From Microglena sp. YARC (taxonomy: Eukaryota > Chlorophyta > Chlorophyceae > Chlamydomonadales > Chlamydomonadaceae), in assembly GCA_022414725.1 (NCBI GenBank), contig CM039464.1, positions 1,178,001 to 1,242,000 of the forward strand: a stretch of DNA of 64,000 nucleotides, in the 5' to 3' direction. Each line of letters opens with the position of its first letter. The first letter of the stretch is position 1. Shown one piece after another: positions 486 to 59,215 of the stretch. Below the pieces are notes generated by a model. It was not told the origin of the DNA. It searched no databases and saw only the letters and a program-made list of their open reading frames with translations. The position numbers and the translations under genes were made by a program.

Positions 486-3400
486 GTGAGTTGCAGTACG
501 CTGTCATGCACCGTTTGCATGTGAATGGGAGAGAGGACAAAATGAAGCCAAAGAGATTTGCTTTTACCCTCATTGGCACCCATCGTTCTACCCTAACACT
601 CATAACCCTAACCCACTCATTGCACTTCCACTCAATCACCCTACAACTCACCACCCATCCAATCAATACTATGCCACTCATCACACTACTGCCACTCATT
701 ACACTTCCACTCATCACCTAGCCACCAACTCCCCGCCCCCCTCCCTACTCACACCCTCCCTCCCTCCCTCCCTCCCCCTCCCTCCCTCCCTCCCTCCCTC
801 CCTCCTACCGCTCATGTACCTTCTTAATCCCTTTCACGCCCTGTCACCCCTTCCCCCCCCCCCCTCCTTCCCTTTCCCCCCTAATGTAACTTCTCAAGCC
901 CCTTCAAGCCTTGTCCTAACTTCCCTCTCCTCCCCTCCCCTCCTCCCTCCCCTTCTCTCTCACCTTCTCCCTCCTCCTACCCCTCATGTATCTTCTTGAG
1001 CCCCTTCACGCCCTGTCACCCCTCCTCCCTCCCTTCCCCCCTACTTCCCTTTTTCCCCCTCATGTACCTTCTGGAGCCCCTTCAAGCCTCGTCTCAACCT
1101 CCACCTCCTCACCTCCCCTCCTCCCTCCCCTTCTCCCTCCCCTTCTCCCTCCTACCCTCATGTACCTTCTTGGGCCCCTTAACGCCCTGTCACCCCCCTC
1201 CCTCCTCCCCCCCCCTCCCTCCTCCCCCCCCTCCTTCCCTTTTCCCCCTCATGTACCTTCTTGGGCCCCTTAACGCCCTGTCACCCCCCCTCCCTCCTCC
1301 CCCCCCTCCTTCCCTTTTCCCCCTCATGTACCTTCTCGAGCCCCTTCACGCCTTGTCACAACCCCCCCTACTCCCCTCCCCTCCTCCCTCCCTTTCCCCT
1401 TCCCTCCCTGCCCCACAGGTACCTTCTTGAGCCCCTTCAAGCCTTGTTTCCCCTCCCCCCCCCCCCCCCCCCTCCTCCCCTTCCCTCTTCCCTCCCCTTC
1501 TCCCTCCCTCCTTCCCCTCAGGTACCTTCTTGAGCCCCTTCAAGCCTTGTTTCCCCTCTACCCCCTCCTCCCTCCCTCCTGCCCCTAATGAACTTTCTTG
1601 AGCCCCTTCAAGCCTTGTAACACACACTCCCCTCCTCCCTCCCCTCCTCCCTTCCTCCTCCCCCTCAGGTACCTTCTTGAGCCCCTTCAAGCTTTGTAAC
1701 ACACACTCCCCCTCCTCCCTCCCCTCCTCCCTTCCTCCTCCCCCTCAGGTACCTTCTTGAGCCCCTTCAAGCCTTGTAACACACACTCCCCTCCTCCCTC
1801 CCCTCCTCCCTTCCTCCTCCCCCTCAGGTACCTTCTTGAGCCCCTTCAAGCCCTGGGTAAGAAGGGCCCTACCCCACCTTCAGTGCTCTTCCTCTTGGAT
1901 GCTCTTGACGAAGCTGACGATGCGGGGCGGGGTTGGCTCCCGGTAGCAGCGTTGGTGGCCAAGGAATTTTCCCGCCTACCCCCGTTCGTCAGGATCATCC
2001 TCACCAGCAGGCCCGAGGCCTCCCATGATGCGGCCTCCTCAAGTCCAGAGGGGCAGCCACAAGTGGCTGACATGTTTAAAGCGTGGGAACCTGTGCAGAT
2101 CCATCCCGGGTCCCAGGTAGGGGGGAGTAGAAGAGAGGGGATTCAGTTGGTGTTGTAGGTAGGAAGGAGGGGGAAAGAGGAGATTCAATTGGTAATGTAG
2201 GTAGGAGGGAGGGCGAAAGAGGAGATTTAATTGGTGCAGTACATAGGAGGGAGGGAGAGAGAGGAGATTCAGCCAATATTGCTGGTAGGAGGGAGGGGAT
2301 GAGAGGAGATCCAATCTAGGTCGCAGGCAGGGGGGAGGGGCAGTTTAGAGACTATGCACGGCTATTTTGAGTGTTCTTTGGGACCCTTTATTTTGAGTGG
2401 TCTGCAAGTGCACGGGGATCTGAAGTTAAATGACACATTTTGCGCCAACTACAATATAATACAAGTATCGGGTGTGATGGATGCAGGGTATTTCCCCTTC
2501 CAAGCGGTTTAAATGGCGATGCAGTGGACACACCCCCAGCTGAGGGGAAGGATGGAGGGGCGGCTCCTCCATAGGAGCGCATGATGGATGCAGGGTACTT
2601 CCATTGACCAAATTGGCCAGCACTTTAATGCACTTGAAAACATAAAACTGCGCTTTGTAGTGCAAAAAGTGCAAAAATTGCTTGCTGCGCCCACAGGGGG
2701 TGGCAAAAAACTGCGCGAAAACCGCAGTGGGGCTCAAAAAGGCAGCGCGCCAGCATGCAAAAGCGCGCGCTTGGAAGTAACCCGATGGCATGGTCCTTGC
2801 GCTAACCAACATGGTACATAATAACAGTTTACGTAACTACGGTATTCAAATATAGTATGGTTGCATTGTCGTGAAGGGCTTTCGTAATACCAGCGCTCTC
2901 TCAAATGTGTTTGAAAATGTGTTTGAAAATGTGTTTGAAAATGTGTTTGAAAATGTGTTTGAAAATGCGTTTGAAAATGTGTTTGAAAATGTGTTTGAAA
3001 ATGTGTTTGAAAATGTGTTTGAAAATGTGTTTGAAAAAATGTGTTTGATAACAACCCCAAATTCCGCCAGGGGTATTGGAAATAATTTGCACGTTGGGGA
3101 GGCAGAGTGCGATGGGGTCCAAAATAATTAATCTCAAGCACTACAAATTTGAACCTAAGGTTCCCGAAGTTTGTTTTGTGGGTGTGTGTGTGTGAATGTG
3201 AGGTGTGTTTCCTCCGGCTGAGGAAAGTTCCACAGACAAAACCCTGACCCAAACAAACAACATTTATTGTGAGTGAGTGTGTGTGTATGTGTGCTTGTGT
3301 GTGTGTTTGCGTTTTGTGTGTGTGTGTGTACATGTGTATGTGGAGAGAGGCTGGGGCGGCACACTTGTTTGTTTGGGTGTGTGGGTGTACGTGGGTGTTG

Positions 3401-4944: not shown

Positions 4945-6762
4945 CCCCCCCCCCCTATTTGTATTGTGCAGGAGAACCTCGCAGATATGGAGTTGGTGTT
5001 GAGGTTTCGTCTGAAGGAGGGGCACATCGTTGAGGAGGAGGACTTGACAAAGGCCGTGGCTATCATGTTGCACAAGAGTATGGTGAGGGGAGGGGGGCCA
5101 GGGGGTGGGATTCATTGTTTACGTGTGGGCTTGATGGAGGAACCTGGGTCCACGTCTAGGCCGTGGCTATCATGTTGCACAAGAGCATGGTGAGGGGAGG
5201 GAGGCTCCTGGTGTCTTGTGTACAGAGATGGACAGGAAGTTTTCCTAGTCTCTTATATGGAGAGAAGGATTTAAGTATTCATGGTATCTTGTCTTATCTA
5301 TGGAAAGACAGACGTGAGGTATCATTGTTCTCTTGTGTGATCTGGGGACAGACAGACATGGAGTATTCCTGGACCCTTGTGTGGAGGGACCGCCTAGATG
5401 TTTACTAGTACCTTCTGGATCTGTGGAGGGACCTGGGGCCACGTCTACTACATTATTTGTGACCCAGGTTCCTCCACGGGCTGCCAGATCAGGAAGGATC
5501 CCTTGCTGGGAAGAGCTTTTGTTTCCCGTTGTCGTCGGCTGTGCCTGCAGAGTGTGTATGAGTGTGTGTGTGTGTGTGTGTGTGGTGGTGGTGGGGGGAG
5601 TGGCGTGAGTGTGGGGGCGGATGGGATGGGATGGGTTTAGGGTTTAGTTGTTATAGCTAGGGTTGGGCCGACGTATGAACGTATACTCATATGTTTATAA
5701 GCTCATACGTATATATACGCCGTATGTTGTTTCTCGAAACGTATGAGTATACACGTATACAAGCGTATGAGTTGTACTTCGAAAAGTTCCCTGCACATAA
5801 TTTTCTCGGTTTTCATTCAATTTATCATTTACATAGCTCATCAGAAAGCTGTTGACCTCCTCTATCAAAATATGCAATTCAATTAATCGTTCAAACATAC
5901 CATTTTTGTATATGTGGCCTACAGTTTGATTTAGATAACCAGGATGGCACACATATCAGAGCGCCATCTAGCCTTCCATTCCACAAGTTGTGCTCCTACG
6001 TGGGCTTGATGGATTGATGGTGAAAGCAATGCAATGTGAAGATGGACAATATTGCAATATATTTATATACTGATATTATTATAACCTGTAGCTGTCTCAT
6101 AGAGCTGCCTAGAAGCTGCTGCACACTTGGTCTGAAACCTGTAGCTGACTTACAGAGCTGCCTAGAAGCTGCTACACACTTGGTCTGAAACCTGTAGCTG
6201 ACTCACAGAGCTGCCAAGAAGCTGCTGCACACTTAGTCTATAACCAGTAGCTGACTTAGGGAGCTGCGTTTAAATACTGATGTGAACATGGAAAATATTA
6301 ATGTAATATTGGCATTGAATGGATCCCTTAGATTGGCACCGCGCTTCTTGGTCGACGTCCTTTCTGGCCAAGATTTATTTTTCTGAGATATGGGCAACAT
6401 AAAATTGCCAGAGTATTTTTTTGATAGTTTATATGTGAAGCCAATGAAATTAGCAACGTGGCAATACCTTTAAACCCATGTAAAAATCTTTTCCCAAGAA
6501 GTGCAATAATTACTCATACGTTTTAATACGTTTATATGCATACGTTTATACGTTCATACGTTTATACGGCATATAAAAATGAAAATATACGTTTGCTTCC
6601 CAACCCTAGTTATAGCTGAGTTGTGATGGCCAGCCTGGGGAGCTTATAAGCTGCATGATTTGGGACCCAGGTTCCTCCACGGGGTGCCAGATCAGGAAGG
6701 ATCCCTTGCTGGGAAGAGCTTTTCTTTCCTGTTGTCGCAGGCTGTGCCTGCAGAGTGTGCAT

Positions 6763-6793: not shown

Positions 6794-8909
6794 GTGGGGG
6801 GGGAGTGGCGTGTGTGTGGGGCGGGGATGGGATGGGGATGGGTTTAGGGTTTAGTTGTTATAGCTGAGTTGTGATGGCCAGCCTGGGCAGCCTACAAGCT
6901 GCATGATTTGGGACCCAGGTTCCTCCACATGCATGTTTATGAAGCTAGGCCACAGGTGGAGGAACCTGGGGCCACGTCTAGGCTGTGGCTATCATGTTTA
7001 CACACTAGAGTGCTTTGTGTGGTGGGGGGGGGATGAACAGTGGTTAGCTGGACAGTGGGGTGGGGTGGACAGTGTATGTGTGTGCGTGTTGGGGGTGGCT
7101 GCCATGTTGCACAATAGCATGGTGAGGGGAGGGAGGCCAGGGGTTGGGTTTTGTTGTGTACGCGTGGGCGTGGTGGAGTTGGGGTGGTGGTCAAGGGGGG
7201 CAGCAGAAAGAGACTTAAGTGCAAAGGTACATGACAGTATCACTAGTAAATTTAGCACCAAAACTGCACCATTATTGTGGCCTGGACAGTGGGTTGGATA
7301 GTGCAATTGTTATGGTGCATAATAATTAAAAAACATTGCGCAAATAACCTACTTTGCACTGTTGAAATATGTGCATGCACCAGGAGCATCCAATGGGCCA
7401 TAGAAGTCCACACACAGCTGGTCTAGGGTATACTGACAATGGTTTGGGGATGGGAAGAAAAATGGTGTATTTGAAAGGTCTCAGCGAGATTGGCTGAGCT
7501 GTGTTTACAGTCGAGGTTCATTTATATCTTGACATTTGGTGGGCCATTTCTTCCATTTGGGACATGCCCTTCAATTTCCAGTGTGGCAAGTTTTTCCCTT
7601 CCAAACTGCCCCCCTTCTCCCCCTTGATAAAACCTCAACCCTTGAACGGTGATCAAAGCTTGGACGCCAGGACCACAAGAAACACCCCAACCCATAAACT
7701 TTAGAACCTCAAACCTTGAACTGTAAACCCCAAACCCTTAAAACCTAAACTTGAGCTCCCGAACCCCATAATCTAATCATGAACCTAACCCCCAAATATT
7801 GAAACATTGAACACCATACCTTAATGGAAAAAAATCAACCTTGTATAAACTCAAACCATAAACAATAAACCCTAAACTATCAACCTTGAATAACAGAACC
7901 TCAAATCATAAACCTAAACCCTAAACCCTAACAATCAAGCCTTGTTAACCTCGAACTATAAACACTAAAAGAATAATCAACATACTTGATGCTCCAAACA
8001 AACTGCAACCCCTGCCAAAAATCACAACCATCACAAACCACATGCATTCGCGCAAACATCACTACCAAGCCTCGCGCCTTGAACTCTTGAACCTTGAACC
8101 ATCAAACCCTATCACTTTTAATTAGGAAATGACACCCCCGTGTGCATAGCATATTTTGTGTGCACTTGTGTGGCAATGTGTGTTTTTGTGGCATCACCTT
8201 GCCTTTGTGCCTAACCATGCCCCCCCCACCCACCACCCACCCTCCGCCCACCCTCCCCCACCCTCTCCCCAACCACCTCCAGGGCCAGTTTGTGTGGCTC
8301 AAGTTTGCATTCGACCAACTCTCTGAACGTCCAGGCTTCTGGAGGTTGGACGAGCTTGTTCTGATACTGCCGGAGGGGCTGAATGGCACGTACCGCTACT
8401 TGCTGGGCAGGGTGCGTCGTACGCTACAGGCTGGAACCCCTGAGCAACAACGCTTGTGGGATTTGTTGCATGAGCGCACGCTTCCGGTGTTGTTGGTGGC
8501 CCGGGAGGCACTATCGGTAGCTAAGTTGGCGTGGTTGGCAGGGGTGCGGCCAGAGGATGCCAGGCAAGGTGTGGAGCTGTTGGGAAGCTTGTTCCCTTAC
8601 CACGTAGGGCAAGACCGCATCCTCCCCTACCACAAGAGTGTGCTAGACTGGCTGGGGTCGGAGGTGGATGCAGGCGTGGAGTTGGTTGTGAGGCGGGAGG
8701 TCGGCCACCACCTGTCTGGTGCTGCATGCCTCAACGTGGCCATGGGCTTGCAAGCCTCGTTGTATGCCCCGCCTGTTGCTGAAGCGCCTTCAGAGGAAGC
8801 ATTGAAAGAGCAGTATGCGCTTCGGCACTGTATTCCACACCTGGTGAAGGCAGGCGATGGATCGTGGGCAAGCATTGACAGCTTGGCATTACAGTTTGGC
8901 TTCGTGCAG
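1..8909 (+). CDS. NACHT-type STAND NTPase gene, partial (four exons recovered)
   Basis: This is an intracellular P-loop NTPase of the NACHT/STAND class, a signalling switch family whose C-terminal repeats normally sense a ligand. The exons are 1-485, 1828-2116, 4972-5082 and 8283-8909. They join with compatible phases (2, 0, 0, 0) into one 504-codon frame. Seen in order: Walker A GGPGMGKS, a YLLEPLQAL segment, Walker B LFLLDALDEADD, a sensor-like IILTSRPEA motif, then the helical region with KSMGQFVWLKF and YHKSVLDWL, which matches the usual spacing of fungal and animal NACHT proteins. The frame is open at base 1 and exon 4 ends at a GT donor, so both gene ends are missing. The ligand-sensing repeats probably lie in or beyond the N gap, but I found no later exon. 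The NACHT identity is firm; the biological role is not known. Confidence 0.85.
490..806 (+). other. Intron 1 of the NACHT gene, 5' part
   Basis: Intronic sequence that becomes rich in CATCAC/CTCATCACC short repeats and then in CCCT repeats from about 730. I see no coding signal. It leads into the array of exon-2 acceptor copies. Confidence 0.6.
807..1827 (+). repeat. Array of about 12 degenerate copies of the exon-2 acceptor and exon start
   Basis: A C/T-rich tract in which TACCTTCTTGAGCCCCTTCA, the first bases of exon 2, recurs in degraded form near 817, 886, 988, 1064, 1153, 1254, 1328, 1420, 1522, 1590, 1670 and 1750. The copies are 66-100 bp apart. The copies near 1419, 1522, 1669 and 1749 keep an intact CAG|GTACC acceptor. 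The real exon is the most 3' copy, at 1828. Several copies run into a stop soon after the YLLEPLQAL-like codons, so using them would truncate the protein. Confidence 0.85.
1828..2116 (+). CDS. NACHT gene exon 2 (Walker B)
   Basis: Acceptor CCCCTCAG|G and donor TCCCAG|GTAGGG. The exon encodes YLLEPLQAL, the Walker B block LFLLDALDEADD and IILTSRPEA. It is 289 nt: one base completes the split Arg codon and 96 codons follow, ending in phase 0. Only this copy of the repeated exon start continues into an open frame. Confidence 0.88.
2117..2345 (+). repeat. Echoes of the exon-2 donor side (about 60-bp units)
   Basis: Purine-rich units of GTAGG(A/G)GGGAG...GAGGAGATTCAATTGG repeat four to five times after the donor. 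The last, near 2306-2340, also resembles the exon end: AGATCCAATCTAGGTCGCAG against AGATCCATCCCGGGTCCCAG. Some exonic sequence was therefore carried along. Confidence 0.6.
2591..2783 (+). mobile_element. hAT-type MITE, family 1, degraded copy
   Basis: Starts CAGGGTACTTCCA and ends TTGGAAGTAACCC, an eroded inverted repeat. The interior matches the better-preserved copy at 43,079-43,252, sharing the AAACTGCGCTTTG and GGGGCTCAAAAAGGCAGCGC blocks. The flanks GATGGATG and GATGGCATG look like a damaged 8-bp target duplication. It encodes no transposase. Confidence 0.75.
2902..3036 (+). repeat. 12-bp minisatellite, about 11 copies
   Basis: Near-perfect tandem repeat of AAAATGTGTTTG, with one copy carrying GCG. 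Because 12 is a multiple of 3, both strands look open (FENV and FKHI repeats), but nothing else suggests coding. Confidence 0.9.
3176..3440 (+). repeat. GT-rich simple sequence
   Basis: Imperfect (GT)n with ATG and TTT interruptions inside NACHT intron 2. It holds no gene signal. Confidence 0.8.
3654..3790 (+). repeat. Tandem duplication of about 66 bp
   Basis: Two adjacent copies of a unit containing AATGTCTTATGTACTTTTCC and GTATTCAGACATCTAGAAAC. A fragment of the same unit lies upstream near 3560. Confidence 0.8.
3880..4598. other. NACHT intron 2, no gene seen
   Basis: Mostly unique, moderately AT-rich sequence. An 'AGGGTAGCCATGTCAGGCC' block near 4310 recurs at about 4600. I see no exon, RNA gene or long repeat. 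Confidence 0.5.
4599..4641. repeat. Short perfect hairpin
   Basis: CAGGGTAGCCATG and its reverse complement CATGGCTACCCTG enclose a short loop. The right arm is also the first half of the SINE target duplication just downstream. Confidence 0.7.
4631..4874 (-). mobile_element. tRNA-derived SINE family A with 17-bp target duplication
   Basis: The body is 4648-4857, minus strand. The head carries A box TGGTCTAGTGGTAGACC and a B-box-like GGGGGTTCGACTCCC. The tail ends CAGGCGTTATCATTACC. Identical copies of GGCTACCCTGTTGAGCT flank it at 4631-4647 and 4858-4874, a target duplication expected of LINE-driven insertion. It lies about 100 bp upstream of NACHT exon 3, in the intron. Confidence 0.9.
4909..4955 (+). 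repeat. Poly-C tract acting as polypyrimidine tract of exon 3
   Basis: A nearly uninterrupted C run followed by TATTTGTATTGTGCAG. It sits where the polypyrimidine tract of the exon-3 acceptor is expected. Confidence 0.8.
4972..5082 (+). CDS. NACHT gene exon 3
   Basis: Acceptor TTGTGCAG|GAG and donor AGTATG|GTGAGG enclose 37 codons, phase 0 at both ends. The encoded ENLADMELVLRFRL...AVAIMLHKSM runs directly into GQFVW of exon 4. This gives the usual NACHT sequence in which a short helix pair precedes a K-S-x-G-x-F-x-W motif. Confidence 0.85.
5138..5200 (+). repeat. Echo of the exon-3 end and donor
   Basis: CCGTGGCTATCATGTTGCAC...AGCATG|GTGAGGGGAGG repeats the last codons of exon 3 together with its donor, about 110 bp into the intron. 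A similar copy is at about 7096-7135, and a fragment with CACGTCTAGGCTGTGGCTATCATG lies at 6973-6993. Confidence 0.85.
5459..5657 (+). repeat. Copy 1 of a 200-bp intronic duplication
   Basis: Runs from GACCCAGGTTCCTCCACGGG through a (TG)n tract to GTTTAGGGTTTAGTTGTTATAGC. It matches 6658-6863. Here it is interrupted at its end by the hAT-like element at 5658-6608. Confidence 0.85.
5658..6608. mobile_element. hAT-type non-autonomous element, 951 bp, with 8-bp TSD and empty site
   Basis: Terminal inverted repeats TAGGGTTGGG and CCCAACCCTA. Identical 8-bp GTTATAGC flanks lie at 5650-5657 and 6609-6616. The duplicated flank at 6856-6863 shows the uninterrupted site. Subterminal regions carry many CATACGTTTATACG-type motifs in both orientations, as hAT subterminal binding sites do. 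No transposase frame is seen. The middle has three roughly 60-bp units with GAGCTGCCTAGAAGCTGCT (about 6080-6265), a motif shared with other intronic repeats in the window. Confidence 0.9.
6658..6866 (+). repeat. Copy 2 of the 200-bp duplication (empty site for the hAT element)
   Basis: Matches 5459-5657, and its TTAGTTGTTATAGCTGAGTT is uninterrupted, so it preserves the pre-insertion target. Confidence 0.85.
6957..7140 (+). repeat. Further echoes of the exon-3 donor region
   Basis: Contains GGCTGTGGCTATCATG (about 6980) and GTGGCTGCCATGTTGCAC with AGCATGGTGAGG (about 7096-7135), degraded versions of the exon-3 end and donor. Confidence 0.75.
7310..7640. other. NACHT intron 3, nothing recognised
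   Basis: Unique sequence without coding, RNA or repeat signals that I can support. Confidence 0.4.
7640..8110 (+). repeat. Degenerate AACCTTGAAC / CCCTAAACC repeat
   Basis: Short motifs such as AAACCCTAAACC, AACCTTGAAC and TCAAACC recur irregularly. Some match the plant-type telomere unit CCCTAAA, but the array is far too degenerate to be a telomere. Confidence 0.6.
8283..8909 (+). CDS. NACHT gene exon 4 (post-NTPase helical region)
   Basis: Acceptor CACCTCCAG|GGCCAG and donor GTGCAG|GTGTGT enclose 209 codons, phase 0. It starts GQFVWLKFAFDQL, contains a run of Leu-rich helices and ends with a YHKSVLDWL motif and YALRHCIPHLVKAG. Both motifs are common between the NACHT domain and the repeat domain of such proteins. 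The sensor repeats expected next are not in the assembled sequence. Confidence 0.85.
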
Positions 8910-9121: not shown

Positions 9122-9400
9122 AGGCAATGCACTTCAGAAGATGCATTGCAAGAGCTGTTATGCGCTTCGGTACTGTAATTCCACACCTACTGAAGGCAGG
9201 TGAATGATGGATCGTGGGAAGCATTGACGGCTTGGCATTACAGTTAGGCTTGTGCTTGTGTGGGGGATAAGGCATGCATGCATGCATTTTGGCAATGTGT
9301 GTGGGGAGGGCGCGCATGCACGTGGCATTTTGGCGGGGTGATGGATTGTGGGCAAGCATTGACGGCTTTGTCATTGTAGTTTGGCTTCGTACAGATGTGT
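9122..9400 (+). repeat. Two echoes of the exon-4 end and donor
   Basis: 9125-9250 repeats the exon-4 codons around LRHCIPHLVKAG...DSLALQ with several disabling changes. 9338-9395 repeats GGATTGTGGGCAAGCATTGAC through TTGGCTTCGTACAG. GCATGCATGCATTTTGGCA repeats between them. The functional exon is the 5'-most copy. Confidence 0.85.
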
Positions 9401-9954
9401 GTGGGGGGGGTGCATGCATGCATTTTGGCAGGTGTGTGTGTTTGTGTGCGTGAATGCATGTATGTTTATGAGTGTGTGTGTGAAGTGAAGTGTTGTGGGT
9501 TTGGGTGGGTGTTATGTGGTGGGTGGGTGGGTGTGGGTGGGTGGGTGGGTGAGTGGGGGGGGGGGGGGGGGCGGGCGGGGGGGGGGGGGGGGGGGGGGGG
9601 GCGGGGCATGATGTTAGTATGATAAGTTTGAGGAATGGAGTGGCATGTGTGGTACCTATGCCTGGAGGGCAAGGGTTGGGGGTAGTAACAAATGAAGGGG
9701 TAGGGTAAAAGGTAGGGATAGTAACAGATAAGGGTAAGTAAAGGAGTAGGGAAGGTTGCCATGGGGGGGAGATCATTTCATTTTGGGGTGTGGGAATTTC
9801 TGTGAGCATAGTGTTGTGTGTAGGGTAAGGTGGGGATCAGATTTTGTTTGTGTTCCGTTCATGGGCCTGCCCCCCCCCCCCCTTCAGATATGAATGTTGT
9901 CACACAAGCACACACACCACACGTACAGACGCAACACACACATTCACCTGACCA

Positions 9955-15047: not shown

Positions 15048-15474
15048 TGATGTACCGTCTACCTGAACGTGTACCACGCTGAGATCTTGAACACTGTCTA
15101 GGCTTTGATTACTGCGTATGGCTGGGGGTGTTCAGTCAACCCAGGATCATTGTTTTACGGTTGCTGGGCTGGTTCTCATTCACGATAGGTTAAAGCATGG
15201 CCCTATGTGGGTGGCCTATTTCCCTCAGCACCGCCTATGAATGTCTTAGTAAGGGTAAGTCTAGATTGGTGGACGTTAACGACCTGTTGTTTTAGGCGCT
15301 TCCTTTCAGCTGTCGTTTCTTGGTTTTGGTGGAAGGTGGTAATTAATTTCAGACCACCGTTATGGCGTTCTTGATGGGTTTCTGGTCTCTTAAGTTCATA
15401 GGCAGTGGTTCATTCGGTGGAGCTCATCAATAGATAAGCTATTTCTTTTTACTCCACACTGTTTTAGATCACCA

Positions 15475-49300: not shown

Positions 49301-49698
49301 TCGTCAAGGTGTTAGAGGCTCACCACCGCCATGACCGTCACAATCAAGTTCTCCACCACAGGATAGGTGCAAAAAATGCGGAGCAGTAAATCGGGACCGC
49401 AGGCGATCGAAGTAAGCATTGATATCGAATTTCTTCTTAACAAGCGCAAGTCTCACGTTCAGAGCAGCCGAAAACAAAGCTTCCAAAATCCCGACCCTGA
49501 ACTGCCCAGGCCGCCGCAATTATAGCAGTATCGCACCTTAACCTTCAAGTGCTCGCCCTTGATGGTTACAGTGACACCCTTGGGTATGGGGATAGGCTTG
49601 GAGCCAATACGAGACTCGCGAGCCACGACGGACAGGTTCACCCTGGTGAACGCGGCGCGCTGGCAGGTGCCATTGGCAAAGGCTCGTTGCTGCAACAT
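43267..49698 (-). CDS. RPL6: Plastid 50S ribosomal protein L6 (uL6c), nuclear gene, last exon not found
   Basis: uL6 is a large-subunit protein near the peptidyl-transferase side of the ribosome, here for the plastid. Exons on the minus strand are 49,698-49,537, 48,312-48,259, 46,523-46,453, 43,987-43,822 and 43,419-43,267. Phases agree throughout and give 202 codons. Landmarks match bacterial/plastid L6: [84 protein letters not shown] and [16 protein letters not shown]. The first 25 or so residues ([20 protein letters not shown]) are a short, Arg/Ala-rich, acid-free leader consistent with a transit peptide. The usual few C-terminal residues are missing and presumably lie in one more exon. 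Confidence 0.93.
43451..43478 (-). repeat. Echo of the L6 exon-5 acceptor and start
   Basis: The minus strand reads ATTTCAGGTTGACAATACAACC, a degraded copy of the exon-5 acceptor and first codons, on the intron side of the real exon. Confidence 0.8.
43580..43645 (-). repeat. Echo of the L6 exon-4 end and donor
   Basis: The minus strand encodes [20 protein letters not shown], matching exon 4 IPKGISVK plus the first intron bases (GTGAGGGACACTGTCC). The donor is mutated here to TTGAGGG. Confidence 0.85.
43822..43987 (-). CDS. RPL6: L6 exon 4
   Basis: Acceptor CCTGACAG|G and donor GTTAAG|GTGAGG. One base completes an Arg codon, then [14 protein letters not shown] through [10 protein letters not shown] follows. 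It is the only copy of this region with the complete frame. Confidence 0.93.
44050..44262 (-). repeat. Two echoes of the L6 exon-4 acceptor and start
   Basis: A short copy (44,054-44,095: [13 protein letters not shown]) and a longer one (44,177-44,262: [20 protein letters not shown] plus VATGYRS) lie upstream of the real exon. Each is preceded by C-rich tracts on the minus strand. The longer copy loses the frame after YRS. Confidence 0.88.
44585..44707 (-). mobile_element. SINE family A head fragment, rearranged
   Basis: Contains CTTGAGGATGAAGAGTC twice and, on the minus strand, TGGTCTAGTGGTAGACC followed by a broken B-box region. It is a partial copy with an internal duplication. Confidence 0.7.
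44806..44997 (+). mobile_element. tRNA-derived SINE family B
   Basis: A box TGGCTCGATGGTAGAGC and perfect B box GGTTCAAATCC. The tail ACCAGGCGATATCATTAC is shared with both families. Confidence 0.82.
45118..45612. repeat. Large inverted repeat (foldback) in L6 intron 3
   Basis: Arms of about 185 bp (45,118-45,310 and 45,425-45,612) are inverted copies, pairing GCATTGGAATGCTTGTCGTA with TACGACAAGCATTCCAATGC. They are separated by a loop of about 115 bp. The arms contain the GAGCTGCCTAGAAGCT motif that is dispersed in the window. Confidence 0.85.
46336..46376 (+). repeat. Poly-G run
   Basis: About 40 consecutive G in L6 intron 3 (poly-C in the sense of the gene). Confidence 0.9.
46453..46523 (-). 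CDS. RPL6: L6 exon 3
   Basis: Acceptor GCGTGCAG|GCTG and donor GAGCAG|GTATGA enclose 71 nt encoding [20 protein letters not shown] and GLS, ending in phase 2. Confidence 0.92.
46610..46755 (+). repeat. 23-bp minisatellite, six copies
   Basis: Units of GAGATATTGATGCGTACGTAT followed by GT, in L6 intron 2. Confidence 0.9.
46760..47230. other. L6 intron 2, nothing recognised
   Basis: Unique sequence with one short poly-C run (47,050). A (GT)n-rich tract follows at 47,248-47,385. Confidence 0.5.
47640..48135 (+). repeat. TACTACCCACATGACTCCC minisatellite
   Basis: Irregular 40-100 bp units with TGTACTAC(C/T)CACATGACTCC and poly-C. They include copies of TACTGCCCACATGAC, which also lies just beyond the L6 exon-2 donor (48,240-48,254), so this array is probably a donor-side echo that kept only intronic sequence. 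Confidence 0.75.
48259..48312 (-). CDS. RPL6: L6 exon 2
   Basis: An 18-codon exon: acceptor TACCCAG|GGCC, donor AAGCAG|GTGGGT, encoding [18 protein letters not shown]. It continues KVK of exon 1 exactly as in other L6 proteins (KVKGPxGEL). Confidence 0.92.
48415..48870 (+). repeat. GTGAGGTATGGCTGTGAGG minisatellite
   Basis: Irregular units of about 30-60 bp in L6 intron 1. The open frames on the opposite strand are low-complexity. Confidence 0.88.
49537..49698 (-). CDS. RPL6: L6 exon 1 (start codon and leader)
   Basis: ATG at 49,698, donor GTTAAG|GTGCGA, 54 codons. The leader is followed by [17 protein letters not shown]. The start is the only ATG that gives a short leader before the conserved ESRIG. 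Confidence 0.9.
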
Positions 49699-50610: not shown

Positions 50611-53600
50611 GTGAGCAGCTTGTGCACCCAGGCTCACGTGTGGGCCATACACTGAGCCACAAACACTGAAACAAGTACACATATTGGTGCTGCTTCACAG
50701 CCCTGAGGTGTGTTCCAAGGTATTGGTCACATAAATAATCCTCATTCCAAGTTATTAGCTGTGTGCAAGTATGTAGCTTCCTGATTCAGGCACTTGTGTG
50801 GGCCACCCTCCACCACCTCCCATCACCCTCCATCACCCTCCCCCTTCCACTCTCCACCACCCTCCACCACCTCCCATCACCCTCCATCACCCTCCCCCTT
50901 CCACTCCCCGCCACTCTCCACATTCATCACCCTCCATCACCCTCCCCTTCCATTCTCCACCACCCTCCACCACCCTCCCCCTTCCACTCTCCACCACCCT
51001 CCACCACCTTCCATCACCCTCCACCACCCTCTCCCTTCCACTCCCCACCACCCTCCACCACCTTCCATCACCCTCCACCACCCTCCCCCTTCCACTCCCA
51101 CCACCCTCCACCACCTTCCATCACCCTCCATCACCCTCCCCTTCCACTCTCCACCTCCCTCCACCACCTTCCATCACCCTCCATCACCTCCCCTTCCACT
51201 CTCCACCATCCTCCACCAACTTCCATCAGCCTCCATCACCCTCCCCCTTCCACTCTCCACCACCCTCCACCACCTTCCATCACCTTCCATCACCCTCACC
51301 CTTCCACTCTCCACCACCCTCCTCCACCTTCCATCACCCTCCATCACCCTCACCCTTCCACTCTCACACACCTCCACCACCTTCCATCATCCTCCATCAC
51401 TCTCACCCTTCCACTCCCCACCACCCTCCACCACCTTCCATCACCCTCCATCACCCTCCCCCTTCCACTCTCCACCACTCTCCACCACCCTCCACCACCT
51501 TCCATCACCCTCCATCACCCTCACCCTTCCACTCTCCACCACCCTCCACCACCTTCCATCACCCTCCATCACCCTTCCCTTCACTCTCCACCACCCTCCA
51601 CCACCTTCCATCACCCTCCACCACCCCCTTCCACTCTACGCCACCCTCCACCACCCTCCACCACTTCCATCACCCTCCACCACCATCCCCCTCCCACCCT
51701 CCACCATCCCGAGGAATTTACACACACACTTCGGAAGCAAATGTAGATACTCCACCCTCCATCACCCTCCACCACCATCCTCCTTACAGCCTCCACCATC
51801 CCAAGGAATTTACACACATACTTAGGAAGCAAACATAGATACTCCACCCTCCATCACCCTCCACCACCACCCCCTCCCACCTCCACCATCCCGAAGAATT
51901 TACACACACACTTCGGAAGCAAACATAGATACTCCACCCTCCACCACCCTCCCTCTTCCACCCTCCACCATCCTCAGGAATTTGCACACACTACGGCGGC
52001 AAGCATAGATAATCCACCCTCTACCACCCTCCACCCCCCATCCGCTTCCACCCTACCCATTCAACTAGCTACCACCCTCCACAACCCTCCCCTGCCACCC
52101 TCCACCACCCTCCACCCTCCATTCCGCTTCCACCCTACCCATTCAACTCGCCACCACCCTCCATAACCCTCCCCCTGCACCCTCCACCACCCCCCACCTC
52201 CATCCGCTTCACCCTACCCATTCAACTCGCCACCACCTCCATAACCCTCCCCCTGCACCCTCCCACCCCCACCCTCCATCCGCTTCCACCCTACCATTCA
52301 ACTCGCCACCACCCTCCACAACCCTCCCCCTGCCACCCTCCACCACCCTCCACCCTCCATCCGCTTCCACCCTACCCATTCAACTAGCCACCACCCTCCA
52401 CAACCCTCCCCCTGCCACCCTCCACCACCCTCCACCCTCCATCCGCTTCCACCCTACCCATTCAACTCGCCACCACCCTTCACAACCCTCGCTCTTCCAC
52501 CCTCCACCACTTTCCCCTGCACACCCTCCACCATCCTCAGTATTTCCACACACTACGGCAGCAAGCAGGGATATTCCACCTCCACCACCCTGCACCTTTA
52601 TCCACCTCCCTCCACCCTCCACCTCCACCACCCTCCACCACCCTCCACCAACCTTCTTCAACCTTTCCCTCCACCCTCCACCCTCCACCCTCCACTCTCC
52701 ACCCTCCACCCTCCACCCTCCACCACCTCCGCCCTCCACCACCCTCCGCCTCCACCCTCACCCTCCACTCACCACCACCCTCCCCTCCGCCCCTCCACCC
52801 TCCCAGTGAAATGTATTCCCTAAGGCAGCAAGCATGGGGTACAAAGCCCTGGATCTAATGCTCCATCGGTCTTTTGGGCTTACCTGCGGGCGAGGGCCGA
52901 TGCGCATGCCTCCACCCTCCACCAACCTCCACCCACCACCAACCTCCACCCTCCCCAGTGATCTGTATTCCCTAAGGCAGCAAGCATGGGTACAAGCCCT
53001 GGGTCTAATGCTCCATCGGACTCCTGAGGCTTACCTGCGGGTGAGGGCCGATGCACATGTGTGGGATGCACGTCTGGTAAACACCCTCATGGAGCATTCC
53101 ACACAGAGGGAGCTTGAAAGCACTGCCCCTCCGTTGCTCCTGGCAGATTGGATGCGCACACGCTTTGGGCGGAAGACTTTGGCAGAGTACTTGGAGCTTG
53201 AGCAGGGCGGTTGGACAGGTGAGTGGTTGAATTGAATTGAAGTGTGGGGACTGTGGGGTGTGGGGTGGTGGTGGACTGCCTCTTCGTTGCTCCTGGCAGA
53301 TTGGATGCGCACATGCTTTGGGCGGAAGACTTGGAGCTTGAGCAGGGCGGTTAGACAGGTAAGTGGTAAAATTGGTTTGAATTAGTTTGACAGAGTAGTT
53401 GGAGCTTGAGCAGGGCGGTTGGCCAGGTAATTGGTTGAATTGGTTTGAACTGGTTTGGCAGAGTTCTTGGAGCTTGAGCAGGGCGGTTGGCCAGGTAAGT
53501 GGTTGAATTGGTTTGGCAGAGTACTTGGAGGTTGAGCAGGGCGGTTGGCCAGGTAAGTGTTGCATTGGTTTGAATTGGTTTGGCAGAGGGACAGGTGAGT

Positions 53601-56600
53601 GGTTGAATTGGTTTGAATTAGTTTGGCAGAGTACTTGGAGCTTGAGCAGGGCGGTTGGGTTGTTAAGTGGTTGATGAGGAGGATGATATTTATGAGGAGG
53701 GGGGTGAGGGGGGTTATATCATCTTGCTGCTTTAATGGGCTCCAACTATGCCCGCACATTGGCAAAGGGACAGGAGGAACCTGTGAGCACTACATGCAAA
53801 ACGTGAAAAACAAAGCCTACATATGTCCTCTGGTTAATGCTGTGTAGGTGTGGTAGAGGCTCATCAGGTGCAGAGAGTGACCTTAGGCAGGACTGCCCTT
53901 CATTGTGCCTCCTACTTCATTATCTCACCACTCCACTGTTATTGTCACCCCTCACCTAGCCCTGTGCTGTGCTGCTGATATTGCCTTGCTCTAGCACAAG
54001 CCAGATACCTAAACATGTTGTGCTGATTCTGTGTAGGTGTGGTAGAGGCTCAGGTGAAGAGAGTGCCCCTAGGCAGGACCGCCCTTCATTGGGCTTCCTA
54101 CTTGACTACTTCACCACTCCACTTGTATTGTCACCTATCCCCTAGCCCTGTGCTGTGCTGCTGATATTGCCTTGCTCTAGCACAAGCCATATACCTAAAC
54201 ATGTTGTGCTGATTCTGTGTAGGTGTGGTAGAGGCTCAGGTGAAGAGAGTGAACCAAGGCAGGACAGCCCTTCAGTGTGCCTCCTACTTCATTATCTCAC
54301 CACTCCACTGTTATTGTCACCCCTCACCTAGCCCTGTGCTGTGCTGCTGATATTGCCTTACTCTAGCGCAATCCAGATACTGAAACATGTTTTGCTGGTG
54401 CTGTGTAGGTGTGGTAGAGGCTCAGGTGAAGAGAGTGCCCCTAGGCAGGACGCCCTTCATTGGGCTTCCTACTTGACTACTTCACCACTCCACTTGTATT
54501 GTCACCTATCCCCTAGCCCTGTGCTGTGCTGCTGATATTGCCTTGCTCTAGCACAAGCCAGATACCTAAACATGTTGTGCTGATTCTGTGTAGGTGTGGT
54601 AGAGGCTCAGGTGAAGAGAGTGCCCCTAGGCAGGACCGCCCTTCATTGGGCTTCCTACTTGACTACTTCACCACTCCACTTGTATTGTCACCTATCCCCT
54701 AGCCCTGTGCTGTGCTGCTGATATTGCCTTGCTCTAGCACAAGCCATATACCTAAACATGTTGTGCTGATTCTGTGTAGGTGTGGTAGAGGCTCAGGTGA
54801 AGAGAGTGAACCAAGGCAGGACAGCCCTTCAGTGTGCCTCCTACTTCATTATCTCACCACTCCACTGTTATTGTCACCCCTCACCTAGCCCTGTGCTGTG
54901 CTGCTGATATTGCCTTACTCTAGCGCAATCCAGATACTGAAACATGTTTTGCTGGTGCTGTGTAGGTGTGGTAGAGGCTCAGGTGAAGAGAGTGCCCCTA
55001 GGCAGGACCGCCCTTCATTGGGCCTCCTACCATGGTTTCACTATTCTGGTCAACTCCTTCCTAGCCCTGTGCTGTGCTGTTGATATTTCCATGTGCTGTA
55101 GTACTCTAGTTCAACCCTGATACTGAAACATGTTGTGCTGATGCTGTGTAGGTGTGGTAGAGGCCCAAGTGAAAAGGGTGACCCAAGGCAGGACCGCCCT
55201 TCATTGTGTCTCCTAATTCACCATTTCACCACTCCACTTGTATTGTCACCTATCCTCTAGCCCTGTGCTGTGCTGCTGATATTGCCTCGCTCTATCACAA
55301 GCCAGATACCTAAACATGTTGTGCTGATTCTGTGTAGGTGTGGTAGAGGCCCAGGTGAAGAGAGTGACCCAAGGCAGGACCGCCCTTCATTGGGCCTCTT
55401 ACCATGGTTTCACTATTCTGGTTAACTGCTTCCTAGCCCTGGGCTGTGCTGTTGATACAACCGACATCAAGAACAAGACACCCCTCTTCCTGGCCTGCGA
55501 AAGGGGCCATCTGGACACGGTGCAAACGCTTTTGGATGCAGGTACGCCAATAAATATATATCGAGGTCCAGGGGTAACCATCATCTATGTTGTGTGAAAG
55601 GGGCCATCTGGACACGGTGCACACGCTTTTCGGTGCAGGTACGCCAATTAAAATAAAATACATAAAGAATTAAATAAATATGGTACGGCTTTTTTAGGAG
55701 GTGGGGGGTGAGGGGGGCAGCCCGTTTGCTTGCACTGGGGGCCAACCACCTTTGTGAAAGGGGTCACCCGGACACCGTCCAAACGCTTTAGGGTGATGGT
55801 GCGCCAATAAATATATAAATAAATGAATGGTACGCCTTTCTAGGAGGTGTGGGGTTGAGGGGGCCAGCCCATTTGCTTGCACTGGGGGCCAACCACCTTT
55901 GTGAAAGAGGTCACCCAGGCACCGTCCAAACGCTTTAGGATGCGGGTGTGCCAATAAATATATATTGAGGTCCAGGGGTAACCATCATCTATGTTGTGTG
56001 AAAGGGGCCCCTGGACATGGTGCACACGCTTTTGGATGCAGATTGGCCAATAAAAATATAAATGATTAAATAAATAAATGGTACGCCTTTCTAGGAGGTG
56101 TGGGGTTATTTTCTTGAATGCAATTCTTGCTCGGGCCCTCTAGCCCAACAACCCCTAGCCTCAATATGATTATAATATGTAACACCTTCATAGATACTTA
56201 TCAGTCACATTTCCCATGCAGGTGCCTCAACAACTGTCGAATGTGATTCGTGCACACGTCCTCTATCCCAAACATGAATAAAATATGTAACACCTTCAGA
56301 GATACTTATCAATCACATTTTCTATTCAGGTGCCTCAACAACTGTCGAATGTGATACGTGCACGGGGGCTCTGGCCTAAGCCTGTCTAGCAGGCCACATC
56401 AAGACCGTGGAGCTGATCCTCTTGTTTTTCCTTCCACATTAAATGCATGGAATATCTAACCAATCATGGATCAACCTCGTTACGCAGGTGCTTCAACAAC
56501 TGTTGAATGTGATACATGCAAGGGCCCTCTAGCCCAGCAACCCTTAGCCCCAATATGAATAGAATATTGAACTCCTTAATAGATACTTATCCTTCACATT

Positions 56601-59215
56601 TCCCATGCAGGTGCGTGTACAACTGTCGAATGTGATACGTGCGCAGGAGCTTTGGACCAAATATGAATATCTTTTGTAACATTTTCAGAGATACTTATCA
56701 ATCACATGCAGGTGCCTCAACAACTGTCGAATGTGATACTTGCACGGGAGCTTTGGCCCAAGCCTGTCTCGCAGGCCACATCAAGACTGTGGAGCTGCTC
56801 CTGAGAGCCGGCGCTCCTGTGTTGACCGACTTTTGCTACCACAGCCCGCTGCACTGCGCTAGTGTGATGGGCCATGCCGACATCATAGCTCTCCTTGTAC
56901 ACCATGTGCGCCATGGCTGTGGGAGTGTCTCTGGTAGTGATGCTGCAACCTCGTACACAGGCTCGTGCAGTGTTGGTGTCCTGGGCGTAGAAGTCGGGGA
57001 AGGTGTTGTGGGAGGCGCAGCCATTGACTTGCCTGGTAATGATCCAGCAACCTCGAACACAAGCTTGGGCAGTGTTGGTGTCCTGGACGTAGAAGCTGGG
57101 GGAGGTGTTGTGGGAGGCGCAGCCATTCACCTGCCTGGTAATGATCTAGCAACCTCGGATGCAGGCTTGTGCAGTGTTGGTGTCCTGGACGTAGTAGTCG
57201 GGGAAGGTGTTGTGGAAGGTGCAGCAATTGATTTGTCTGGTGATTATCTAGAACCCTCGGAAGCAGTTTCGGGGAGGGCCGATGTCCCAGGTGTCGATGT
57301 TGCTGCCACATGCGTCGATATCCCTCGTGTCGATATCCCTCGTGTTGATGTCCTTGGTGTAGATGTCCCAAGTGCAGACGTCCCTACTGTATATACTGAA
57401 GAGCACATTGCGGGAGAAGCAGGTTCAGGGAGTGTCGGTGTTGCAGGTGTTGGTGTCCCAGGTGTAACCGTCTATGCTGTAGATGCTGAGGATCACGTTA
57501 TGGCAGAAGCAGGTGCAGGGAGTGTTGGTGTTGCTGGTGTTGGTGCCCCAGGTGCAACCGTCTATGCTGTAGATGCTGAGGAGCACGTTGTGGGGGAATC
57601 AGGTTCAGGGAGTGTCGGTGTTGCTGGTGTCGATGTCCCAAGTGCAACCGTCTATGCTGTAGATGCTGAGGAGCACGTTGTGGGGGAAGTAGGTTCAGGG
57701 AGTGTCGGTGTTGCTGGTGTTGGTGCCCCAGGTGTAACCGTCACTGCTGTAGATGCTGAGGAGCACGTTGTGGGGGATGCACTCGATGATGATGATGAGG
57801 GGGATACCGGCACCGAGCATTGTCACTACATCCCGTGTCAGTTGGATGCTGACCCGCTGATGGTGTTGGGCTTGGGCAGCCTGCTCTGCTCCCAACTCAA
57901 CTACAGCCTGGACAAGGCGGTACGCGGCAGTTACAACGAAGCAGTACAGCTGCTGCTTGACCTGGGGGCCAAGGTGTACTGCCAGGGCAGCGATCCACTG
58001 GAGTGGTCCCACTGTCCAACCATTTTGAGCGGTGATGCAGACATGCTGCAGACCTTGCTGGCGGCCAAGTCACTCGACCAAGAGCAGCTGGGCTCACTCC
58101 TGTGCCTAGCATGCTCCATTGGAACCTTGGGACAGTTTGCATACCCAGGCAAGTCACTGCTCTTATTTTAGTGTATATATATACACTAAAATTGTCTGTG
58201 TAACCCTCTGCCCCGCCTCTGCCCCCCGCCCCCCTGTGACACAAGGAACAAACGAAAAAAGATGGCGAAATCTCTGTATGTTAACATATATATAGATATA
58301 TCATTCATTTTCTTTTTTGTTCGGGAGATTTCAATCAGCGGGGGTCTAGTAATCATCTGGAAGTCGCTGCTCTTTATTTCTTTTGTTTTTGCCATTTTTG
58401 TTCAGGAGATTGAATTTTAAATGATTCTGTCTTTTTTGTCTGGGAGATTGTTTTTTTTATGTTATTTTGTCTTTTTTGTTCGGGAGATTTCAGTCAGTGG
58501 TGGTCTATAATTCATTTGTCTCTATCTTTCGCCTCCTCTAATTGTTGATTTTTCTTTTCGAAAGATCAAACTCAGATCCCTAAATCCCTAGATCGCACTG
58601 CCAGAAAATAAGCTTGTATTTGTTTATCCCCCCTCCCCCACACCACCACCACCACCATCCAACCCCACCCAACCCAATTCACACCCCACACCCCACAACC
58701 CACACACACCCCATGCATACCCAGGCTGTAGTGATGTTGAGCGTCTGGTAGTGATCAAGGCCTTGCTAGCAGCAGGAGCCCCTATGACAGCAACAGCACG
58801 ACAATGGGGCCACAACAGTAACTTCCATGTCACTGAGGATACCCCACCCCACGTCCCCCACATGCCACCCCACCCACCCACACCCCATGCACCCCCAGAC
58901 TGTAGAGATGTTGAGCGTCTGGTAGTGATCAAGGCCTTGCTGGCAGCAGGATCCCCTGTGACGGCAACAGCGCCACAGTGGGGCCACAACGGCAACTTTC
59001 ATTTCACTGGGGATACCCCACTCCACTTCGCCATCCGTCATGGGGACCTTGAAACCGTGCAGCTGCTGATGGATGCAGGGGCGGCTGTGCATGTGGCTGG
59101 CTGCTTCGTTGCTGAGGATGACGCCCACAAGCGATTTGGATCAACACCGCTGGAACTTGCACGCATCTACAACTGCTCTGAGGCTATTCTAAAGGCTCTG
59201 GCTGCAAAAGCCTAG
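50399..59215 (+). CDS. F-box-like / ankyrin-repeat protein with an internal repeat insert
   Basis: Five exons: 50,399-50,610, 52,977-53,218, 55,338-55,541, 56,712-58,148 and 58,725 (or 58,899) to 59,215. Phases agree (2, 1, 1, 1), giving 861 (or 803) residues. Residues about 44-70 (LPMQLWCQVIGHIDNPRDL then SSLTAVCR) fit an F-box, which binds Skp1 in SCF ubiquitin ligases. Ankyrin repeats (GRTALHWASYHG, KTPLFLACERGH, SPLHCASVMGHA, DTPLHFAIRHGD) would bind the substrate. Within the array, about 260 residues of Val/Gly-rich repeats are inserted. An F-box plus ankyrin architecture suggests a substrate adaptor for ubiquitination, which is inference. The head-to-head neighbour is plastid L6. Confidence 0.85.
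50703..50812 (+). repeat. Two echoes of the exon-1 end and donor
   Basis: Copies of CCAAG(T/G)TATTGG(A/T)CACATA(G/A)ATAATCCTC and of TTAGCTGTGTGCAAGTATGTAGCTT repeat the exon-1 end, the donor and the following intron in degraded form. Confidence 0.8.
50800..52800 (+). repeat. CCACCCTCCAC satellite, about 2 kb, in intron 1
   Basis: Strand-asymmetric pyrimidine-rich repeat of CACCCTCCA(C/T)CACC with longer units of about 60-90 bp (CCTTCCATCACCCTCC...CTTCCACTC). All three plus-strand frames stay open for over 300 codons because TA-containing stops cannot occur. That is not evidence of coding. Confidence 0.9.
51700..52910 (+). repeat. Echoes of the exon-2 acceptor and start
   Basis: Degraded forms of GTATTCCCTAAG|GCAGCAAGCATGG lie near 51,712, 51,802, 51,893, 51,972 and 52,536. 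A nearly perfect 80-bp copy is at 52,825-52,905 (GCAGCAAGCATGGGGTACAA through TACCTGCGGGCGAGGGCCG). They become more similar to the real exon toward it. Confidence 0.85.
52977..53218 (+). CDS. F-box/ankyrin gene exon 2
   Basis: Acceptor TCCCTAAG|G and donor TGGACAG|GTGAGT. It encodes QQAWVQALGLMLHRTPEAYL through ADWMRTRFGRKTLAEYLELE, a helical linker that I do not recognise. It starts by completing an Arg codon and ends in phase 1. Confidence 0.8.
53270..53670 (+). repeat. Five to six echoes of the exon-2 end and donor
   Basis: TTGGAGCTTGAGCAGGGCGG followed by TT(G/A)G(C/A)CAGGTAA(G/T)TGG recurs near 53,332, 53,399, 53,470, 53,525 and 53,636. A longer copy from GCTCCTGGCAGATTGGATGC begins near 53,289. 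Units are 65-110 bp and most keep a GT donor. Confidence 0.88.
53845..55337 (+). repeat. Array of eight echoes of the exon-3 acceptor and ankyrin start, about 186 bp each
   Basis: Copies begin near 53,847, 54,036, 54,222, 54,409, 54,593, 54,779, 54,963 and 55,150. Each has CTGTGTAG|GTGTGGTAGAGGC and then codons for AQVKRV..GRTALH. 54,036-54,592 and 54,593-55,149 are near-identical 557-bp triplets, so the array also expanded in blocks. The copy at 54,963 already resembles the real exon further into HGFTIL. Confidence 0.9.
55338..55541 (+). CDS. F-box/ankyrin gene exon 3 (ankyrin 1-2)
   Basis: Acceptor CTGTGTAG|GT and donor GATGCAG|GTACGC, phases 1 and 1. The two repeats read GRTALHWASYHGFTILVNCF and NKTPLFLACERGHLDTVQTL. 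Only this member of the array has the complete frame. Confidence 0.88.
55580..56110 (+). repeat. Echoes of the exon-3 end and donor
   Basis: GTGAAAGGGGCCATCTGGAC followed by ACACGCTTTT..GTGCAG|GTACGCC recurs near 55,595, 55,755, 55,895 and 55,998, each followed by AATAAATATATA-like intron sequence. Degradation is heavier than in the 5' array. Confidence 0.85.
56215..56711 (+). repeat. Four echoes of the exon-4 acceptor and start
   Basis: CAG|GTGCCTCAACAACTGTCGAA lies near 56,220, 56,329, 56,487 and 56,610. The copy at 56,329 runs about 90 bp into the exon (through GGCCACATCAAGACCGTGGA), with a stop where exon 4 has Gln. Confidence 0.9.
56712..58148 (+). CDS. F-box/ankyrin gene exon 4 (ankyrins with inserted repeats)
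   Basis: Acceptor CATGCAG|GT and a GC donor ACCCAG|GCAAGT, phase 1 at both ends. It encodes ASTTVECDTCTGALAQACL, two ankyrin repeats, a Val/Gly-rich insert, then further ankyrin-like repeats with EAVQLLLDLGAKV and ADMLQTLLAAK. The insert has three units of 34 residues (SVGVLDVEAGGGVVGGAAI...), a VDIPR/VDVLG pentad run and four units of 30 residues (GSGSVGVAGV..VYAVDAEEHVVG). Confidence 0.87.
56960..57270 (+). repeat. In-frame 102-bp coding repeat, three units
   Basis: Each 34-residue unit starts SVGVL(G/D)VE and ends near GNDxATS. Differences are mostly substitutions, and the frame is kept. Confidence 0.88.
57420..57780 (+). repeat. In-frame 90-bp coding repeat, four units
   Basis: Units begin at about 57,421, 57,511, 57,601 and 57,691. 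Each encodes 30 residues with GSVGVAGV, VPxxTVYAVDAE and EHVVGE. No stops or frameshifts. Confidence 0.92.
58149..58724 (+). other. GC-AG intron bounded by a 13-bp direct repeat
   Basis: TGCATACCCAGGC occurs at 58,138-58,150, spanning the donor, and at 58,714-58,726, spanning the acceptor. The body includes TTGTTCGGGAGATT repeats (58,318-58,490) and a CACCACCACC/CCCACACC tract. Confidence 0.75.
58725..59215 (+). CDS. F-box/ankyrin gene last exon, with in-frame 174-bp duplication
   Basis: Either acceptor is possible, both in phase 1: 58,725 (ACCCAG|GC) or 58,899 (CCCCAG|AC). The 174 bp between them is a partial copy of the exon start (DVERLVVIKALLAAG) that stays open through a Pro/His-rich stretch. 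The C-terminus has HFTGDTPLHFAIRHGDLE, TVQLLMDAGAAV and GSTPLELARIYNCSEAIL, then TAG at 59,213-59,215. Confidence 0.82.

Follow-up and report, generated by a model that had tools for sequence, protein, structure and literature searches.

Genes and repeats in the window

The stretch analysed (the window; 64,000 nucleotides, C3:1178001-1242000) belongs to a 568 Mb assembly of the green alga Microglena sp. YARC, in which contigs C1 and C3 measure 194.9 Mb and 63.2 Mb. Three genes, with exons set by protein continuity, were identified in it, namely a NACHT gene, the gene for plastid L6 and an ankyrin gene (Table 1). In the introns of each, partial copies of the adjoining exon edge were found, here termed echoes, and the splice sites copied within them are termed decoys.

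Table 1. Exons and repeat arrays of the three genes identified in the window
Feature	Position in window	Strand	Basis
NACHT exon a (NPHP3_N; cut by window start)	1-485	+	open frame, PF24883 (E 2.6e-8), splice continuity
NACHT intron 1 acceptor echo array	786-1827	+	exon-edge test, alignment, TRF period 79
NACHT exon b	1828-2116	+	splice continuity
42-nt array at NACHT intron 2 donor	2115-2315	+	alignment
NACHT exon c	4972-5082	+	splice continuity
NACHT intron 3 donor echo (another at 7095-7151)	5131-5205	+	exon-edge test, alignment
NACHT exon d	8283-8909	+	splice continuity only
NACHT exon d donor echoes (n = 2; exon content up to 120 nt)	9132-9425	+	exon-edge test, alignment
L6 exon 6 (RGK, stop)	42488-42499	-	identity with P0003
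L6 exon 5 (acceptor echo at 43451-43475)	43267-43419	-	identity with P0003, exon-edge test
Donor echo of L6 exon 4 (intron 4)	43586-43640	-	exon-edge test, alignment
L6 exon 4	43822-43987	-	identity with P0003, alignment with solved L6 proteins
Two acceptor echoes of L6 exon 4 (intron 3)	44049-44287	-	exon-edge test, alignment
L6 exon 3 (neither edge with echo)	46453-46523	-	identity with P0003, exon-edge test
L6 exon 2	48259-48312	-	identity with P0003
L6 exon 1 (donor without echo)	49537-49698	-	identity with P0003, exon-edge test
Acceptor echoes before the exon at 52959	51775-52908	+	exon-edge test, alignment
First ankyrin-gene exon in window	52959-53218	+	open frame across splice
Donor echo array, 5-6 copies, ankyrin intron 1	53275-53677	+	exon-edge test, alignment
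Acceptor echo array, 8 copies, unit ~186 nt, ankyrin intron 1	53816-55304	+	alignment
Ankyrin-like exon	55338-55541	+	open frame
Donor echo array, 4 copies, ankyrin gene	55593-56060	+	exon-edge test, alignment
Acceptor echo array, 4 copies, all AG/GT, ankyrin gene	56187-56660	+	exon-edge test, alignment
Ankyrin exon with in-frame tandem repeats	56712-58148	+	Pfam, open frame
Acceptor echo of last ankyrin exon, ~134 nt of exon at 87%	58698-58858	+	exon-edge test, alignment
Last ankyrin exon with stop codon	58899-59215	+	Pfam, open frame
Copies of last-exon end beyond the stop codon	59245-59858	+	alignment

The four exons of the NACHT gene join in an open frame, with no Pfam match found for exon d. 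Intron 1 was found to contain 12 decoys, each consisting of a pyrimidine tract, AG (or AT) and approximately 28 nt of exon b. The start of this intron, the sole one inspected for an AGGT-type origin, was by eye unlike the downstream exon. The donor of exon a (GAGCG/GTGAG, the slash marking the boundary) bears no echo.

The six spliced exons of the L6 gene yield a product of 205 amino acids that is identical to EukProt model P0003 over all residues and approximately 60% identical to the plastid-type L6 proteins of Monoraphidium, Haematococcus and Chlamydomonas; without exon 2, the product was aligned with solved plastid L6 proteins. The acceptor echoes of exon 4 hold 44 and 82 nt of that exon at 93-95% identity, and a weak donor-side echo of exon 2 (48051-48097) failed the shuffle test described below.

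The exons of the ankyrin gene form one open frame to the stop codon, with Pfam ankyrin repeats in the last two; no Pfam match was found for the exon at 52959, which the first-pass annotation had called F-box. Upstream of this exon lie a near copy of its edge (52783-52908) and decayed copies at 52515-52573, 51948-52020 and 51775-51932. Arrays also expand by whole blocks: in intron 1, a second copy of a 557-nt block comprising three units matches the first at 535 of 546 aligned positions. The exon repeats have units of 102 nt (56931-57266) and 90 nt (57342-57781), both in frame. The copies beyond the stop codon, which like these exon repeats were absent from the first-pass annotation, lie at offsets of 179, 350, 529 and 700 with 85-94% identity. 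Long pyrimidine-rich arrays were also observed at 48417-48795 and 50803-52800, on the coding strand of the adjoining gene; the latter holds decayed exon echoes and may therefore derive from a duplicated polypyrimidine tract.

A fourth gene, at 33 kb, had been named alongside these three as bearing echoes. The pattern stood for the NACHT, L6 and ankyrin genes, and the evidence did not establish the 33-kb locus as a gene having such a junction: the array there begins CATCAT/GTGAGC, a possible donor, but also holds the in-frame stop of a plausible ORF. It was excluded from every junction count. Elsewhere in the window, minus-strand gag/pol-like ORFs (22707-25604) were found between two 220-bp direct repeats of 99% identity (element at 21831-25846); the ORF at 23982-25604 matches Pol_BBD, and the element is probably a young copia-like retroelement.

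Frequency and position of echoes at splice junctions

A second sample of genes was taken from the same genome outside the window by a Pfam family search for chaperonins, which returned multi-exon genes on several contigs. Nine loci were taken. L033 and L038 were excluded because their exon matches were not contiguous, and every interval with this defect was dropped from the remaining seven. The boundaries of the 25 introns in the seven genes retained (on contigs C1, C2, C3 and C5) were set from contiguous protein matches together with GT/GC-AG sites. Together, 74 junctions were defined, 24 in the window and 50 in the chaperonin genes; the sample comprises only ten genes, seven of them chaperonins, and covers part of that family, which has further matches in the genome. 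Two one-sided junctions (NACHT donor 4 and the acceptor at 52959) are included in counts of 74 and are outside counts of 72.

An open frame results when the exons of chaperonin genes B, D, E, H and K are joined, for E and K as two separate pieces. In gene F, exons 1-4 are open and the rest is open from inside exon 5, the joined exons having no open frame; the break lies in exon 5 shortly past its acceptor (locus L030, 5663-5705) and is either an assembly error or real. Gene I has frame breaks in two exon stretches of the assembly. The junctions of genes F and I therefore rest on local continuity. Genes H and I are copies of CCT1, which is approximately 79% identical to the CCT1 of Astrephomene and of Chlamydomonas sp. 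UWO 241. Junctions matched those of EukProt models for 5/5 introns of L6, 4/4 of CCT1 copy H and 2/3 of copy I (P0125 being taken as its model). Two further near-full-length chaperonin matches (C6:13962293-13963762 and C5:11283081-11284901) each consist of a single open frame, unlike the rest of the family.

Echoes were scored using an exon-edge test, in which 60 nt of exon at the junction was aligned to its own intron and to 200 dinucleotide-preserving shuffles, a pass requiring a score above all 200. The test was passed on the same strand at 37 of 74 junctions (12/24 in the window, 25/50 in the chaperonins) and on the opposite strand at one (0/24 and 1/50); for window junctions, the best of the other introns taken together gave 3/24. 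Half of the tested junctions were thus without an echo by this test, among them all six of gene B, one of the seven chaperonin genes. In a straddling test, with a query of 30 + 30 nt across the junction and copies counted at a score of at least 36, copies were found on the intron side at 40/74 junctions (13/24 in the window, 27/50 in the chaperonins) and on the exon side at none (0/24 and 0/50). The number of copies per junction in the window ranged from 1 to 12, and the arrays stood out most clearly in NACHT intron 1 (12 acceptor copies), ankyrin intron 1 (6 donor and 8 acceptor copies) and L6 introns 3 and 4. These results bear out the first-pass annotation, which had described one to twelve copies of exon edges within their own introns, always on the intron side, and had named the comparison with shuffled introns as a check.

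Nine of the ten genes, spread over four contigs, showed the pattern. In intron F4, five donor copies with a period of 188 bp face three acceptor copies (real sites included), and in an HSP70 gene (C3:11606017-11606801) one exon start appears in three copies, as taken from the protein match table only. Among the 31 best exon-edge copies (score of at least 36, 74 junctions), 30 cross the junction by at least 5 nt on both sides; in measurements of copy extent, values of 60 nt are lower bounds owing to masking. At 13 of 72 junctions, a TRF array extends 10 nt or more to either side, so that a head-to-tail minisatellite array runs across the exon boundary, and the exon content of these arrays is 17-128 nt. 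The proposal that copies straddle the exon edge has an exception in the 42-nt donor array of NACHT intron 2, which holds only approximately 2 nt of exon and is therefore mainly an intron-edge repeat.

Similarity had also been said to rise toward the real exon in several arrays. Of six arrays, that of NACHT intron 1 showed such a rise clearly (rho -0.73, p 0.007), two gave a hint of it (p 0.07 for ankyrin donor 1; 3 copies at the acceptor of the exon called F-box) and three showed none; a general age gradient toward the exon was accordingly rejected.

Duplication at junctions compared with introns and the genome

The raw rate of local copies was found to be similar at junctions and inside introns. 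In the same 36 introns, 753/1542 interior 60-mers (49%) had a local copy, compared with 38/72 straddling junctions (53%); 35.2 junctions with a copy were expected from their own interiors (P 0.24). In the window, local copies were found for 49/116 exon, 7/16 junction and 176/416 intron 60-mers. Across 20 random 10-kb stretches of C1-C3, 745/2491 complex 60-mers (30%) had a same-strand copy within 2 kb, and only 56/2491 an opposite-strand copy.

When each array was counted once, the interior fraction was 22% and the junction/interior ratio 2.4 (95% interval 1.9-2.9), and for near-identical copies, taken with a stringent score cut, the ratio was 2.8 (interval 1.7-4.5). Low-complexity 60-mers were dropped from the interior counts and kept in the junction counts, which may inflate this ratio. 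A simulation of position-blind duplication with decay and protected exons was run with five parameter sets, two runs each. It gave straddling rates of 0.42-0.54 (0.53 observed) and junction/interior ratios of 1.1-1.8 copy-weighted and 1.4-2.4 for near-identical copies. Most of the copy-weighted excess is therefore expected from blind duplication: as exon sequence is protected, exon copies are recognisable for longer. The measured interval begins just above the top simulated ratio of 1.8, and there may be a modest true preference for junctions, or better retention there. This remainder, if real, is small; junctions are at most slightly preferred, strong targeting of them was rejected, and the view of junctions as a special target was not supported in the form proposed.

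Exonic 60-mers of the window genes were copied into flanking noncoding DNA in 52% of 23 cases at 0-20 nt from the exon edge, 35% of 37 at 60-120 nt and 0/85 beyond 120 nt. The periods of the junction-crossing TRF arrays range from 58 to 557 bp, and 8/13 are not divisible by three; the two exon-internal repeats measured, those of the ankyrin exon, are multiples of three. The non-triplet periods at junctions, the triplet repeats in the exon, the copies past the stop codon and the limited reach fit duplication that occurs at any position and persists wherever the protein is unaffected.

The CCT1 paralogues H and I, whose exons are 81-83% identical over the three stretches compared, differ in which shared junctions bear echoes (in one individual), and two pairs of introns at matching positions show no alignable similarity, their best local scores of 23 and 31 lying below the 24 and 35 of reversed controls. 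At the larger end of the local duplication habit, kilobase-scale tandem duplications of approximately 72-92% identity were observed in the window at 11465-18835, 29524-32655 and 32994-40077.

Decoy splice sites and choice of site

At 35 of 74 junctions, 105 decoy sites were identified. The splice dinucleotide is preserved in 79 of these, and 38 are identical to the real site across nine bases. The real dinucleotide is present in 31 of the 44 decoy donors, 11 being identical from -3 to +6, and AG in 48 of the 61 decoy acceptors, 27 being identical from -6 to +3. Protein continuity identified the real site in every case as the exon-side one, namely the first donor and the last acceptor, and together with the gene models this indicates that the exon-side site is probably the one used in RNA. 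As the real site is first among donors but last among acceptors, the choice would most likely be made by exon definition: a simple first-come rule fits the donors and not the acceptors, whereas exon definition fits both and is thus favoured. By exon definition, a decoy acceptor would be passed over as having no paired downstream donor, and a decoy donor as having no paired upstream acceptor.

Each array amounts to a natural competition between splice sites in which sequence is near constant and position differs. With 38 of the decoys matching the real site over nine bases, choice among equal sites becomes directly testable.

Origin of the echoes

The best explanation is considered to be frequent tandem duplication that takes little regard of genes and leaves exon-edge copies in introns, where they are kept as splicing would remove them (probability roughly 0.77). 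The duplications would mostly span approximately 60-210 bp, with copies head to tail where arrays are intact, and may have been made by replication slippage or unequal exchange. Duplication across an acceptor would give two successive units of intron tail and exon head; only the second runs on into the exon, and the first would therefore stay in the intron, with the mirror image at donors. Copies on the intron side would be retained because splicing would cut them out. Their restriction to that side is a necessary outcome of this geometry together with selection on exons, and alone is no sign of a junction mechanism. There is good support for the earlier proposal that local duplication recurs across junctions and is concealed by splicing, and the chaperonin sample shows that it extends beyond the window.

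Splicing or transcription at the junction could instead make or guide the copies, through R-loops, pyrimidine tracts or reverse-spliced RNA. The 2.4-fold copy-weighted excess over interiors, lying just above the simulated range, is in keeping with such targeting, as is its persistence at 2.8-fold for near-identical copies. However, raw rates are equal at junctions and interiors, blind duplication in the simulation reaches 1.8-fold (2.4-fold for near-identical copies), and local copies of complex 60-mers are common in random genomic stretches. A like footprint lies past the ankyrin stop codon, and the exon content of the copies in the 13 TRF arrays varies, with no common breakpoint seen. Junction targeting is accordingly judged unlikely.

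A functional role for the decoys, with AG/GT units serving as zero-length exons for recursive splicing or as regulated alternative sites, is considered highly improbable. The retention of the splice dinucleotide noted above would agree with it, as would the finding that window acceptors with a GT-starting exon were echoed in 5/5 cases, compared with 2/7 of the others; this link fails in the chaperonins (5/11 and 9/14), and recursive splicing via GT-starting exons was rejected. AG is also lost in 8/12 NACHT decoys. Within the 13 arrays of the window, variable columns made up 13/52 of the four-column splice-site cores and 220/992 elsewhere. Decoy sites thus decay at the same pace as their flanks, selection for decoy AG/GT was rejected as no excess conservation was seen, and the selective upkeep of AG/GT within introns that marks a recursive-splicing ratchet was not seen in these arrays. 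An assembly artefact, in which haplotypes or sequencing errors were joined in tandem, is the least credible of the alternatives. The arrays were read from the assembly, the window holds 1000 N bases and some exon frame breaks are perhaps assembly errors. Against this, the best exon-edge copies diverge by 4-23% from the real edge, and substitutions are shared and nested among copies, unlike those of stacked haplotypes or read errors. Furthermore, the pattern recurs in nine of ten genes on four contigs, and on one strand but for a single junction.

Position-blind tandem duplication thus remains the preferred reading. Its extension to the whole genome, by which boundary-crossing duplication would be a main engine of intron growth, with decoys at approximately half of all junctions and a spliceosome that reliably picks the first donor and the last acceptor, is put forward tentatively, its chances being set a little short of even. 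If true, such decoys would amount to a natural experiment on exon definition spanning the whole genome of a green alga.

Comparison with known systems

Growth of introns is usually credited to transposons. In this alga much of the intron sequence consists of local repeats, part of which derives, at half of the tested junctions, from the gene's own exon edges, and such echoes are frequent enough to be counted.

Events of this kind are already known from published single duplications across boundaries; what is new is the scale and recurrence. A junction-crossing tandem duplication has been described in the potato RdRp gene (Ma, Lan and Niu 2016, PMC4974935), where a single event gave rise both to a new intron and to an insertion of exon sequence; in the alga the copies stay in an existing intron, up to 12 times, at half of the tested junctions. 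Variable internal tandem repeats at exon-intron boundaries have also been reported for human segmental-duplication genes (PMC2812944). That account resembles the present case in its minisatellite-like boundary arrays and in similar repeats within exons. Counting exon and intron cases jointly, it covers approximately 7% of the genes that lie in primate segmental duplications, and describes novel introns as well as alternative splicing. In the alga, by comparison, housekeeping genes are hit and the exon product appears unchanged.

The Rogers/Hellsten model, outlined in a review (PMC3443670), holds that introns are gained when an exon segment with AGGT is duplicated in tandem. Local tandem duplication and an extra copy hidden by splicing are common to that model and the alga; the model makes a new intron from exon, whereas in the alga it is introns already present that lengthen, through copies of their edges. 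Introners (PMC9860276) are likewise reported to bring about large-scale intron change in a genome, but insert copies of themselves into many genes, whereas the echoes match their own exon only. Sequence shared by introns of unrelated genes, the hallmark of introners, was not found when exon edges were compared: at echo junctions of the chaperonin set, own-intron scores reached 115 and the best score against introns of other genes was at most 29 (the H/I pair not being intercompared). No account of recurrent junction echoes at such a scale was found in the literature searched, which is not proof of absence, as many subscription papers lay outside the search.

Gene finders may be misled by echoes. 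The EukProt CCT1 model P0123 ends exactly at an echo-bearing donor (locus L035, 9003-9621), as if the intron had been read through. In CCT1 copy I (locus L032), model P0125 is without 20 conserved residues before the echo-bearing donor of the exon preceding intron I2; this gap possibly reflects a model error, an effect of the frame breaks of this gene, one of which lies in that exon in the assembly, or use of another splice site.
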